Shown piece by piece: positions 49,485-53,269 of a stretch of DNA of 64,000 nucleotides. How positions within the stretch are numbered: the stretch's first letter is position 1; every line of letters begins with the position of its first letter. The notes beneath the pieces were generated by a model that was given only the letters and a program-made list of their open reading frames with translations, was not told where the DNA came from and ran no database searches. The DNA comes from Flavobacterium sp. 140616W15 (GTDB lineage: Bacteria; Bacteroidota; Bacteroidia; Flavobacteriales; Flavobacteriaceae): contig NZ_CP033068.1 of the NCBI RefSeq assembly GCF_003668995.1, positions 4,712,001 to 4,776,000 of the forward strand. Direction: 5' to 3'. The position numbers were made by a program, and so were the translations under genes.

Positions 49485-49652
49485 ATTAAAAGTTGTCCCA
49501 ATACAAGTTATATTAAGCATTAGAACAGAACATTAAATTATTTAAATAAATCATATCGATTTGTGTTTTTTCTTTATAAGAAAACAAAGCATATTCTTTT
49601 TTATCAACAATAGATTGCCGATTTTTGTCACTTCTAAATCAATAAAGATAAA

Positions 49653-50882
49653 ATGACAACAGAAGATAAAGAGATTATTTTATTAAAAGTTTCAGGTCAT
49701 GATAAACCAGGAGTTACAGCAGGATTAACAGCAGTATTGGCTACTTATGATGCCGTTATTTTAGACATTGGGCAAGCTGATATTCATGATACGCTTTCTC
49801 TGGGGATTTTGTTCGAAATCCAAGCCGGTTCAACTTCAGGACCAGTTCTAAAAGACTTATTGTTTAAAGCTTATGAATTAGAAGTAAAGGTAAAGTTTAT
49901 CCCAATTTCTATTGAAGATTATGAAAAGTGGGTAAAAACACAATCCAAGCAACGTTACATAGTTAATATTCTAGGAGAAAAATTAGCAGCTTCACAATTA
50001 GCAGCAGTTGCCAAATTATTATCCGATCAAAATTTAAATATTGTATCTATAATACGATTAACAGGAAGAACATCTGTTGTTGAAACAGAAGAATATCCAC
50101 GTTCATGCATACAATTATCCCTAACAGGAGATGTTGTAGATAAGATTGCAATGACAGCAAGTTTTATGGAAATTTCCAGAACCCTAAATGTAGATATCTC
50201 ATTTCAGGAAGATAATATTTATAGAAGAAACCGACGCTTAGTTTGTTTCGATATGGACTCAACACTAATTCAAACGGAAGTAATAGACGAATTGGCAGAG
50301 CTGAATGGAGTAGGAGAGCAAGTAAGAGCAATTACAGAATCGGCTATGAATGGCGAAATAGATTTCAACGAAAGTTTCAAACAACGTATGGCATTGTTAG
50401 AAGGTTTGAGCGAAGACGTTTTGCAATCGGTTGCTGAAAAGTTACCAATAACCAAAGGAGCACATCGTTTAATGAAAGCCTTAAAATATTACGGATATAA
50501 AACCGCTATATTATCGGGAGGATTCACTTATTTTGGAGAATATTTGCAAAAAGAGCTAGGCATCGACTACGTGCATGCCAACCAATTAGAAATTAAAGAT
50601 GGGAAATTAACTGGTAAATATTTAGGTGACATCGTCGATGGCCAGAAGAAAGCCGAATACTTAAAAGCAATTGCCGAAAAGGAAGGAATTCACATCAATC
50701 AAACTATAGCAGTAGGAGATGGGGCCAACGATCTGCCAATGCTAAATTTAGCAGGTCTAGGAATCGCCTTTCACGCAAAACCTACCGTAAAAGAAAATGC
50801 ATCAACCTCGATTTCAAGTCTAGGACTCGACGGTGTTTTATACCTATTAGGATATCATGACCGATATATCGACATGATGTAG
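49653..50882 (+). CDS. serB: Phosphoserine phosphatase SerB with two ACT domains
   Basis: The last step of serine synthesis. It has 409 residues: ACT-like regulatory domains at about 8-80 and 100-185, then a HAD domain with catalytic DMDST (Asp200 and Asp202 in FDMDSTLIQTEVIDE), motif II 'TAILSGGF', and motif III 'VGDGANDLPML'. The long form with duplicated ACT domains is known in other bacteria. The 270-base spacer upstream holds a possible terminator, and I see no promoter I can support. Confidence 0.93.
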   Translation: MTTEDKEIILLKVSGHDKPGVTAGLTAVLATYDAVILDIGQADIHDTLSLGILFEIQAGSTSGPVLKDLLFKAYELEVKVKFIPISIEDYEKWVKTQSKQRYIVNILGEKLAASQLAAVAKLLSDQNLNIVSIIRLTGRTSVVETEEYPRSCIQLSLTGDVVDKIAMTASFMEISRTLNVDISFQEDNIYRRNRRLVCFDMDSTLIQTEVIDELAELNGVGEQVRAITESAMNGEIDFNESFKQRMALLEGLSEDVLQSVAEKLPITKGAHRLMKALKYYGYKTAILSGGFTYFGEYLQKELGIDYVHANQLEIKDGKLTGKYLGDIVDGQKKAEYLKAIAEKEGIHINQTIAVGDGANDLPMLNLAGLGIAFHAKPTVKENASTSISSLGLDGVLYLLGYHDRYIDMM

Positions 50883-50897
50883 TTTATTTACAATAAT

Positions 50898-50952
50898 GTC
50901 AGGCTGAGCGGAGTCGAAGGATATACGGGGCTTCGACTCCGCTCAGCCTGAC
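50898..50952. repeat. Palindromic intergenic repeat downstream of serB
   Basis: Two 22-base arms (50898-50919 and 50931-50952) are perfect reverse complements, with an 11-base loop. GC-richness far exceeds the surroundings (arm core GGCTGAGCGGAGTCGAAG). It looks like a REP/BIME-type dispersed palindrome of Bacteroidota genomes. It lacks a T-run, so it is not an obvious terminator. Confidence 0.85.
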
Positions 50953-51005
50953 AAAATCGCGTAAACAAGTAGGATGTTTACGCTAACCCTAGAAATTAAA
51001 CAAAA

Positions 51006-51033
51006 AAACCTCGATTTTTTAAAATCGAGGTTT
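51006..51033. terminator. Bidirectional terminator
   Basis: AAACCTCGATTTT (51006-51018) and AAAATCGAGGTTT (51021-51033) form a 13-bp stem with a TT loop. A-rich sequence to the left and TAATAAAAA to the right suit both directions. It serves serB (plus) and the small gene at 51057 (minus). Confidence 0.75.
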
Positions 51034-51056
51034 AATAAAAATATGCGAATTAAAAC

Positions 51057-51296
51057 TTATTCTACATTCAAATAAGGATTTAAAGCTTCGGCTAATTCAT
51101 TGAGCCAATAAAAGCTGTTTTCGAAGTTGATCATTTCGTTCTGAAGGCATTGATTTTCCCTAATAGCACTTATAGCAAGAAGATAATTTGCTTGCCTAAT
51201 TATCTTAGCCATATCTTTTGGTTCTATCATATGGCTGAAAAAATTCATAAGCCTTGTTTTGGCTTCTTCTGAAAGGTTGTTTGTGTTTGTAATCAT
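51057..51296 (-). CDS. Small hypothetical protein, 79 residues
   Basis: An all-helical-looking, cytoplasmic 79-residue protein (from MITNTNNLSEEAKTR to AEALNPYLNVE) with no signal peptide or membrane segment. The sequence is protein-like: balanced charges and amphipathic helix around 'IIRQANYLLAISAIRENQCLQNEMINFENSFYWLNELAEAL'. Its ATG overlaps the stop of a 41-codon upstream ORF by ATGA, suggesting translational coupling. It is followed by a terminator. I do not recognise a family. Confidence 0.65.
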   Translation of the reverse strand: MITNTNNLSEEAKTRLMNFFSHMIEPKDMAKIIRQANYLLAISAIRENQCLQNEMINFENSFYWLNELAEALNPYLNVE

Positions 51297-51418
51297 AACT
51301 CTGTAATTTTAGGAAATATAAAACCCGTGTAGCTAAGGTGTCCTACACTTACAGAAGTGTTACGGTTGTTTCCAATACCGTCACCATACCGCACGGGCAA
51401 AAGTTTTTTAGATGTCAT
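51293..51418 (-). CDS. Putative 41-residue upstream ORF overlapping a structured element
   Basis: ATG at 51418 and TGA at 51295-51293, in frame for 41 codons; it would begin MTSKKLLPVRYGDGIGNNRN and end with GFIFPKITEL. Its stop overlaps the next start (ATGA). Most of it falls inside a stretch that folds into a three-way junction (51324-51397), so the coding potential may be incidental to an RNA or DNA structure. It is too short for codon statistics to decide. Confidence 0.4.
   Translation of the reverse strand: MTSKKLLPVRYGDGIGNNRNTSVSVGHLSYTGFIFPKITEL
51324..51397. other. Predicted three-way-junction structure
   Basis: Nested pairings: P1 CCCGTG (51324-51329) / CACGGG (51392-51397), P2 GGTG (51337-51340) / CACC (51382-51385), hairpin P3 ACACTT (51345-51350) / AAGTGT (51355-51360), hairpin P4 ACGGT (51362-51366) / ACCGT (51377-51381). 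P3 and P4 lie side by side inside P2. The same pairings hold on both strands. Confidence 0.5.
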
Positions 51419-51521
51419 GATTTTGTAATTTAGGAAAAGCAAACATAGCAAAAAACCGTTGTAATCAAAGGGTTTTCCCTTTCAATAAAAAAGTAGTTAA
51501 TTTTGATTTTTCCTCCTAGTG

Positions 51522-51536
51522 CGAGTGTCTCACTCG
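51522..51536. repeat. Short palindromic hairpin
   Basis: CGAGTG (51522-51527) and CACTCG (51531-51536) around TCT. It probably belongs to a dispersed repeat type, but on its own could be chance. Confidence 0.4.
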
Positions 51537-51607
51537 TGCATGTAGCGATATGTTTTGGTAGATTATCTTAAAAATAGAGTAAATACTCAATCTGTTTTTT
51601 CGCAAAC

Positions 51608-51708
51608 TTGTCATTCTGAAGAATGAGGAATCTCCACAAGAAACTTACGTAAAATATTTCTAGATTGTCGAGCAACTAATGGAGATTCCTCATTCTTCGG
51701 AATGACAA
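51608..51708. repeat. Long imperfect inverted repeat upstream of the GH3 gene end
   Basis: 28-base arms at 51608-51635 and 51681-51708 are reverse complements apart from one position (A opposite G, a G-U pair in RNA), with a 45-base loop. The arm core is GTCATTCTGAAGAATGAGG. It is a different family from the 50898 palindrome and is also REP-like. Confidence 0.85.
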
Positions 51709-51754
51709 ATAGTGGTTATTTTTCGACAAAATCTATGGTTAAATTAAACGATAT

Positions 51755-53269
51755 TTAAACCTGCATCCTCTTCAACTGCTCCAAATAATCTCTTTGGTTT
51801 GAAAGTCTAGGTATTTTATGCTGACCGCCTAATTTGTCTTTTTCTTTTAACCAATCATAAAATAAATTCTCTCTGGCAACATTAATCACCAAAGGATTTA
51901 GCGTCATATTATTATAACGTTTGGCTTCGTAATCGGAGTTTAGGAATTGTAAGGTTTCATCAAGAGCTTTTTGGAAAAGTCCTATATCAGCAGGTTTTTT
52001 CTTAAACTCAATCATCCATTCGTGAGCGCCTTTTTCTTTGTCTTGCATAAATATCGGAGCTACAGTGTAATCTATAACTTCAGTATTTGTTAACTGACAT
52101 GCTTTGGCAATAGCCTGATCCGTATTTTCAACCATAAGCTCTTCACCAAAAACATTAATATGATGTTTGGTTCTTCCTGTAACTCGAATTCGGTATGGAT
52201 TTAAAGAAGTAAAACGAACCGTATCACCAATTAAATAACGCCATAAACCAGAATTGGTAGTAATAACGATAGCATAATTTTTATTCAATTCCACATCTGC
52301 CAAACGGATTACTTTTTGTTCCGGTTTCCCGAAAGTCTCCATCGGAATAAATTCGTAGAAAATTCCGTAATCTAACATTAGTAATAGATCACTAGAATTA
52401 TTTAAATCCTGAATGGCAAAGAAACCTTCAGAAGCATTGTATATTTCGTAGTATTTAAAATCTTTTTTAGGCAATATGTTTTTGTATTGTTCTCTGTAAG
52501 GAGAAAAACTCACGCCACCATGAAAATAAACTTCAAGGTTGGGCCATATTTCAAATAAATTTCCTTTTCCAGAATCTTCAAGAACACGATTCATTAAAAC
52601 CAACATCCACGAAGGGACACCAGCAAAACTGGTTACATTTTCATTTTTTGTTTCATTAATAATAGCAGCAATTTTCGTTTCCCATTCGCTCATAAGCGAA
52701 GTTTTATTACTTGGCGTACTACTAAATTCAGCCCAGATAGGCATGTTTTCAATTAATATAGCCGATAAATCTCCGAAGAACGTATTGTTGTTTTCATAAA
52801 TCTGTGAACTTCCGCCTAAGCGAAGGCTCTTACCCAGAAACAATTCTGAATCTTCATTATTATTCAGATACAAACACAATAAATCTTTACTTCCTTTATA
52901 ATGACAATCTTCTAAAGCTTCATTACTTACAGGAATAAATTTACTTTTAGCGTTGGTAGTTCCGCTAGATTTTGCAAACCATTTTATCGGAGTTTCCCAA
53001 AAAACATTTTGCTCGCCTTGGCGTGTACGCTCAATCAAAGGTTGCAATTCTTCGTAAGTAGCAATAGGTAATCTTTCAGAAAAAGTCTTATAAGAATTTA
53101 TCGAGGCAAAATCGTATTGCTTTCCAACAATAGTATTTTCGGCAGCCAATATTAAATTATGAAGAAGCTCTTCCTGAACTTCATTTGGATATTTAAGAAA
53201 AAGCTCTATTTGATGAATTCTTTGTTTGAGAACCCAAGAGGCAAATGAATTGATTATTGATAGAGGCAT
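51755..53269 (-). CDS. GH3 family protein (auxin-promoter-type acyl-adenylate enzyme)
   Basis: A 504-residue protein of the GH3 superfamily, homologous to plant amido synthetases that join amino acids to hormones through an acyl-adenylate. The ATP-binding 'KWFAKSSGTTNAKSKFIPVS', 'EIYNASEGFFAIQD' and 'LIGDTVRFTSLNPYRIRVTGRTKHHINVFGEELMVENTDQAI' motifs are all present. GH3 proteins are widespread in Bacteroidota, but the acyl substrate is unknown. It is a single gene; a possible promoter is at 53372-53400. Confidence 0.9.
   Translation of the reverse strand: MPLSIINSFASWVLKQRIHQIELFLKYPNEVQEELLHNLILAAENTIVGKQYDFASINSYKTFSERLPIATYEELQPLIERTRQGEQNVFWETPIKWFAKSSGTTNAKSKFIPVSNEALEDCHYKGSKDLLCLYLNNNEDSELFLGKSLRLGGSSQIYENNNTFFGDLSAILIENMPIWAEFSSTPSNKTSLMSEWETKIAAIINETKNENVTSFAGVPSWMLVLMNRVLEDSGKGNLFEIWPNLEVYFHGGVSFSPYREQYKNILPKKDFKYYEIYNASEGFFAIQDLNNSSDLLLMLDYGIFYEFIPMETFGKPEQKVIRLADVELNKNYAIVITTNSGLWRYLIGDTVRFTSLNPYRIRVTGRTKHHINVFGEELMVENTDQAIAKACQLTNTEVIDYTVAPIFMQDKEKGAHEWMIEFKKKPADIGLFQKALDETLQFLNSDYEAKRYNNMTLNPLVINVARENLFYDWLKEKDKLGGQHKIPRLSNQRDYLEQLKRMQV

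Follow-up and report, generated by a model that had tools for sequence, protein, structure and literature searches.

Two short open reading frames lie in tandem on the minus strand of the Flavobacterium sp. 140616W15 genome, with a sequence able to fold into a three-way junction inside the first and nearly identical start regions before both, and the question raised by this locus is what such an arrangement does. A preliminary description, made from the sequence, had offered three options: a regulatory leader of the second product, a small mobile element, or a coupled pair of small proteins.

Here, we analyze the locus within a stretch of 64,000 nucleotides (the window; all coordinates are positions in this stretch) and compare it with relatives from Flavobacterium and from the phylum at large. 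The locus encodes a folded RNA akin to a phage antisense RNA, which probably guards the small gene located 3′ of the RNA. Our main reading, to which we assign a probability of about 0.8, is that the unit is a C4-type antisense RNA module repressing translation of a protein of 79 amino acids (aa), both in cis and in trans, and most likely a self-limiting one.

Layout of the unit

As read from the sequence, the minus strand carries, in this order, a promoter-like motif, a first repeat, a c4-2 RNA, a second repeat, the gene for the 79-aa protein and a terminator; all these features are on the minus strand. The predicted promoter, TTTG-N18-TATGTTTG (51440..51469), was located by pattern match, and we take TTTG-N18-TATGTTTG to be the Bacteroidota-type promoter. 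Across the window, the pattern is not above chance (3 found vs 4.9 expected). Among relatives, an exact TAnnTTTG occurs at positions −75 to −30 of c4-2 in 78 of 110 loci, compared with 89 of 2970 background windows, and its end is separated from the first repeat by 3 nt in 45 of the 55 loci with a measured distance.

The first repeat (51415..51437), denoted target 1 and a1b1-like, coincides with the predicted 5′ end of the transcript and consists of TCCTA (51435-51431) and the variable part TTACAAA (51428-51422). The c4-2 RNA, a three-way junction of 78 nt (51321..51398), contains a variable, b′-like guide, UUCUGUAA, in hairpin 2 (51349..51356), recognized by its complementarity to target 2, and a conserved, a′-like junction segment, UAGGA (51341..51345), that pairs with UCCUA of both repeats. 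The second repeat (51299..51314), target 2 or a2b2-like, lies just 5′ of the ATG that opens the 79-aa gene and comprises TCCTA (51314-51310) and TTACAGAG (51306-51299); its assignment relies on the duplex with the guide and on the comparison within and between loci described below. The 79-aa gene (51057..51296), identified through its homologues and their dN/dS, is followed by a predicted intrinsic terminator at the end of the unit (51006..51033).

The unit is bordered by a GH3 gene on one side and, on the other, by a gene with ACT and HAD domains that by our own reading we call serB-like. A perfect 23-nt inverted repeat surrounds TGAGCGGAGTCGAAG (50897-50953); the genome contains 29 copies of this 15-mer and 0 of the backward control, indicating a dispersed REP-like palindrome. 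Another inverted repeat, of 29 nt (97% complementary, arms 43 nt apart), surrounds TGAGGAATCTCC (51608-51708) beyond the opposite end of the unit, which is thus flanked by such repeats at each end.

The RNA belongs to the c4-2 family

All four stems of the three-way junction noted in the preliminary description are present, and cmscan assigned the element to the Rfam family c4-2 (RF02944), its score of 71.7 bits exceeding the gathering score of 41. The c4-2 RNA and C4 antisense RNA share the Rfam clan CL00128, and the element has the C4-type three-way junction (~77 nt); of the overlapping matches from one clan, the best alone is shown, so a weaker match to RF01695 would stay hidden. Weinberg et al. 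2017 is the likely source of c4-2. In the parts of the literature available to us, RF02944 figures as an entry in a table of structure improvements, and a description of c4-2 function was not found in the literature searched, with subscription journals mostly outside its scope.

The folding energy is mildly unusual over 150 bases (z = −1.7, with 8 of 200 shuffles as good), which alone is no proof of structure. Comparison with relatives is decisive. In an alignment of 34 copies, hand-picked from 67 loci with type B (see below) excluded, 98.5% of the cells pair, compared with 27-42% in slid controls, and two-sided changes affect 16 of the 25 pairs, in 59 cells vs a shuffled mean of 12.3. Because the structure counted was taken from the Rfam model, the slid control somewhat favours the structure, and the two-sided changes are the stronger part of this evidence. 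The pairings first proposed from a single sequence are conserved in this alignment, with compensatory changes. Past the closing stem, 107 of 110 loci have a U-rich tract.

The same region bears on the proposal of a coupled small-protein pair, in which the RNA structure would be a by-product of coding. The 41-codon leader ORF (51293..51418) does end, as previously described, in a TGA that overlaps the ATG of the 79-aa gene as ATGA, and its reading frame stays open across the RNA at 52 of 110 loci. Those 52 are distributed over different frames (28, 23 and 1), and the rest have no ATG (40) or an internal stop (18). With neither presence nor frame conserved among the 110 loci, we reject a coding role for this ORF, which looks incidental, being often absent, out of frame or interrupted in the sequences of relatives; the RNA, for its part, covaries strongly. 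Of the initial interpretation, the regulatory leader of the 79-residue protein is supported, with its RNA now assigned to c4-2 and the C4 clan, and the coupled pair drops to a negligible probability.

The direct repeats match the guide of the RNA

The near-identical start contexts 122 bases apart that had drawn attention to the locus are there, plain in the sequence, even though a direct-repeat scan with default settings did not report them as a family. They are explained by their common complementarity to the hairpin-2 loop and to the UAGGA that follows hairpin 2. The first repeat is at the predicted transcript start and the second covers the start region of the small gene; at most loci, both consist of a conserved TCCTA and 7-8 variable nt, and the variable part complements the hairpin-2 loop of the same locus. 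In the copy studied here, guide and target 2 form a duplex of 8 bp and 5 bp (−15.5 kcal/mol); pairing with target 1 reaches −9.3 kcal/mol, one base weaker than in the relatives L003 and L035. According to the unpaired probabilities, the outer bases of this guide are predicted to pair inside hairpin 2 and the middle CUGU is open.

Matching is specific to the locus. Among 32 distinct hairpins, a guide match of at least 7 nt was found within loci in 25 of 32 cases upstream and 26 of 32 downstream, compared with 55 of 992 and 53 of 992, respectively, between loci, and in 0 of 2000 permutations were the observed match sums reached. These hairpins come from 60 type A loci, that is, the 67 fetched minus 6 of type B and the weak L050, and include the partial tandem copies L047, L064 and L066. 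In a sample selected by the protein, which overlaps the RNA-selected one, c4-2 lies directly upstream in 63 of 79 loci, 16-32 nt before the start codon (59 of them at no less than 30 bits). For the RNAs of at least 50 bits in this sample, with 28 distinct loops, matches of at least 7 nt number 21 upstream and 20 downstream; after swapping, there are 72 of 756 and 95 of 756, with 0 of 5000 permutations on either side. The loci are kin by descent and not independent, so these permutation counts are not probabilities, and the swap among distinct loops is the fair control.

The repeats also decay together with the RNA. In the protein-selected sample, a match of at least 6 nt to target 2 is retained in 47 of 53 loci with an RNA of at least 50 bits, vs 1 of 10 below that score, and to target 1 in 49 of 53 vs 4 of 10; one of the 10 weak RNAs (L132) is too short for a loop and was scored as a miss. 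The 16 protein-selected loci without an RNA match carry, by eye, apparent remnants in most cases. The conserved half of the guide covaries as well: of the 110 loci, 62 combine UAGGA with CCTA in both repeats and 13 combine UAAGA with CTTA in both. The exceptions are UAGGA with CTTA in both (4) or with one of each (16); of the remainder, 14 are not fully assignable and a single locus combines UAAGA with one of each.

A two-part guide with upstream and downstream sites, as in P1/P7 C4, is thus present in type A loci, and type B loci have a weak downstream site. When additional targets of the guide were sought in its own genome, 5 pattern matches were obtained, including target 2 and the complement of the guide itself, equal to the number for the backward control. 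The matching of guide and repeats, the regulated genes and the codes of individual copies appear to be new, as judged from the literature searched, subscription journals being mostly outside it.

The small proteins behind the RNA

The 79-aa protein represents a conserved Flavobacterium family, with 79 homologues from a single search; a profile search yielded 973, of which the best 120 were listed. Across 1387 pairs drawn from 76 sequences, its median dN/dS, the check suggested in the preliminary description, is 0.206, with no pair above 1, and we take this ORF for a real gene. The median is 0.193 at the 26 loci where the RNA is decayed or undetected vs 0.204 at the other 53; equal conservation at loci that lack an intact RNA speaks against strong toxicity of the protein.

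Comparison of the family, as a 34-member alignment, with profile databases gave no assignment in Pfam (best E 0.022) or NCBIfam (best E 0.02), the matches in both being scattered over single or few members, nor in PHROGs (best E 0.0029, 2 members). The name DUF1844, borne by one homologue among the matches listed, was not confirmed by Pfam. The structure model is a three-helix one with a mean pLDDT of 76.9; a sequence search of PDB had a best E of 0.037, and a fold search with the model returned none at E 0.001 in PDB or BFVD.

A second small protein family, type B, is located behind c4-2-like RNAs in 6 loci (L006, L012-L015 and L067). Type B proteins are mostly ~91 aa in length, with 2 of the 6 shorter, and start with MTKENQ, MQKENQ or MTRENQ, their first codons partly following the guide sequence. 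Similarity between the type A and type B proteins was rejected (hhalign probability 1.7%). Paralogues of the small protein within the window's own genome comprise L071, with a decayed RNA (18 bits), and L073 and L076, which lack a detectable RNA.

Copies in one genome carry different codes

For the 32 distinct guides, the mean duplex energy with target 2 is −13.1 kcal/mol for cognate and −6.9 kcal/mol for non-cognate pairs, and with target 1, −14.9 and −9.3 kcal/mol, respectively. Across all genomes, the cognate is the single strongest partner for only 15 of 32 guides at target 2 and 13 of 32 at target 1, because similar guides recur in other genomes. Among copies of the same genome, the own target 2 is the strongest for 30 of 30 guides (12 genomes, 2-3 copies compared in each). 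In 4 genomes, of which we took five of the 6-7 copies each, the own target 2 is the strongest in 17 of 20 cases and the own target 1 in 16 of 20. The three failures at target 2 are L221, whose gene is truncated and whose target is altered; L230, which cross-reacts with L229; and L234, which was scored with a shortened target and reaches −14.3 kcal/mol in its own pairing with the full one. The copies in one genome thus most likely use mostly different codes.

Codes differ even between copies with the same protein. Two loci of one genome, L231 (which coincides with L032) and L233, have identical proteins but unlike guides, and among pairs of proteins at least 93% identical, the loops differ in 48 and are the same in 19, after removal of 4 identical stretches (69 usable loci; the pairs are not independent). 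Identical or near-identical proteins under different guides suggest that distinct codes are selected for, much as in phage heteroimmunity, although leaders may instead have been exchanged between copies with no such selection at work.

Selection for distinct codes leads to a more speculative proposal, which we consider unlikely, namely, that every c4-2 RNA forms with its small protein a minute, self-limiting element of a separate immunity type, amounting to a phage-free, chromosomal heteroimmunity. A resident antisense RNA would silence copies with the same guide, and units with a new guide would escape, express the protein and persist; the protein might be an Icd-like growth inhibitor or a factor favouring the unit, and escape would drive the diversification of guides even among identical proteins.

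Distribution and genomic setting

At E ≤ 0.001, c4-2 was detected in 73 of 398 Flavobacterium genomes (70 above the cut-off) with up to 8 copies per genome, in a search with stricter filters that lose weak matches. The protein is present in 78 of the same genomes, and both are present in 62, vs ~14 expected if they were independent, an expectation that ignores relatedness. By the same E value and filters, 16 of the 78 protein-bearing genomes have no RNA match. Conversely, 11 genomes have the RNA and lack the 79-aa family; two of these (L023 and L033) have another small protein 3′ of the RNA. This protein is of a third kind (81 aa, beginning MSTKPQP). In a sample of 395 genomes from the phylum, c4-2 occurs in 11, of which 10 belong to Flavobacterium, and the single match outside the genus (L050) scores a weak 36 bits.

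The unit is multicopy. By rough single-linkage, its 79 sampled loci and that of the window form about 32 neighbourhood groups; the largest group (30 loci) probably lumps several sites, and no neighbour is common to all 80 loci. The 79-aa family was not found in IMG/VR viral contigs with a profile, nor with a single member as the query in phage or plasmid records; within these collections, we reject residence on phages or plasmids. At the site occupied in the window, GH3 and serB-like genes within 1.5 kb were recovered in 8 of 29 loci fetched from relatives, and both the small gene and the RNA are missing from all 8. The stretch separating the GH3 gene from the serB-like one is too divergent for boundaries of the empty site to be drawn.

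Direct repeats bounding an element that is absent from 8 relatives with visible synteny would also fit target-site duplications or recombination scars, left by a small mobile element that put the RNA before the gene. Insertion scars do not predict the match between repeats and loop locus by locus, its loss in most cases where the RNA decays, or the similar distance kept between the RNA and the gene it precedes across many neighbourhoods, and we rate this origin of the repeats as very improbable.

Proposed mode of action

Taken as a C4-type module, the unit would work as follows. One transcript would start at target 1, continue across the c4-2 RNA to target 2 and finally encode a single small protein. 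Processing, or termination at the U-tract behind the closing stem, would free the c4-2 RNA. Its hairpin-2 loop and the UAGGA that follows would pair with target 2, covering the ribosome-binding site and start region, and so keep the 79-aa protein from being translated, in cis as well as in trans; since the RNA loop matches the start of the small gene, the RNA probably switches this gene off. Pairing with target 1 at the 5′ end of the RNA would provide a probable second control, through premature termination or C4 maturation.

Several observations count against this antisense model, among them the 15 and 13 of 32 guides, noted above, for which the cognate target is the single strongest across all genomes, and the 16 protein-bearing genomes with no RNA match. 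The copy in the window has a weakened target 1 and a guide partly predicted to pair within its own hairpin, the protein is conserved in 26 of 79 loci where c4-2 is decayed or undetected, and in type B, pairing with target 2 is weak and unspecific (−6.6 to −10.1 kcal/mol), that with target 1 being strong (−21.7 to −23.3 kcal/mol).

The main alternative is that the leader acts only in cis, its guide pairing with its own target 1 or target 2 as alternative pseudoknots in an attenuator-like switch, not as a diffusible RNA. All three pairing partners are on one predicted transcript, and the U-rich tract after the closing stem resembles that of an attenuator. Against a switch confined to cis, the parts and their order match those of P1, in which C4 is, in the portions of the source available, a separate antisense RNA, and the preference for the own target among paralogues makes most sense if the RNA diffuses and cross-talk is avoided. 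An exclusively cis-acting leader, which overlaps the preferred explanation in that the latter includes action in cis, appears to us possible, if rather unlikely.

If the antisense module is correct, it supplies a mechanism and a target for an Rfam family otherwise given as a structure and a clan, and extends C4-type control from proteobacterial phages to Bacteroidota chromosomes. Natural antisense pairs that share a scaffold but differ in code would open a view on the evolution of antisense specificity and might serve as regulatory parts. Two dissimilar small-protein families, types A and B, without an assigned function, are found under the same kind of RNA.

Comparison with known systems

In type I toxin-antitoxin systems, an antisense RNA represses a small toxic, usually membrane, protein. 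The Flavobacterium unit has the antisense architecture; its protein is modelled as a helical bundle and is conserved where the RNA has decayed. Type III systems (ToxIN) consist of a tandem-repeat RNA antitoxin and an endoribonuclease toxin; we rejected this assignment, as the direct-repeat scan of 49500-53000 disclosed no tandem array and the protein has no Pfam or NCBIfam match.

The closest counterpart is the C4 / icd-ant operon of phages P1 and P7 (RF01695, RF03163), from the same Rfam clan as c4-2. The P1 record annotates a promoter, a1, b1, the 77-nt C4, a2, b2 and icd, in the same order as in the Flavobacterium unit, and in the P1 sequence b′ is in the hairpin-2 loop and a′ in the strand after it, the places where the two halves of the Flavobacterium guide are found. 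The first gene of this operon likewise encodes a small protein, Icd (73 aa), which, according to the accessible part of the source, is an inhibitor of host cell division (PMC8198154); similarity of the 79-aa protein to Icd was rejected, as there is no alignment. Unlike those of P1/P7, the Flavobacterium units are chromosomal and consist of a single gene followed by a terminator, with no antirepressor; in the window, the single-gene unit between the serB-like and GH3 genes is not a phage immunity region. The halves of each target are 3 nt apart in Flavobacterium, whereas in P1 the gap is 22 nt between a2 and b2 and 7 nt between a1 and b1, and, unlike P1, Flavobacterium has the U-rich tract after the RNA and several paralogues per genome. 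In the available text of PMC5320573, C4 is described as processed by RNase P and as occluding the ribosome-binding site, and P1/P7 specificity is ascribed to a′, whereas the variable half of the Flavobacterium guide is the one that pairs next to the start codon.

The same text describes a C4-like RNA family with varying loops in Acinetobacter; the Group 1 sRNAs of Acinetobacter baumannii resemble the Flavobacterium RNAs in occurring many times per genome with variable specificity loops (PMC5320573). For Group 1, the portions available describe no adjacent targets of their own (PMC5320573), whereas most Flavobacterium copies keep their own target and gene. The CI RNA of phage P4 (seqA-cI-seqC) pairs both upstream and downstream of itself, at one site on each side, like Flavobacterium c4-2 (PMC4825925); P4, as characterized in the part of that source available, is a satellite phage with control by transcription termination, and the likeness is one of described layout. 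Structure and targets together place the Flavobacterium RNA, which lacks the phage setting and the antirepressor, with the C4 clan and suggest that it works like C4.
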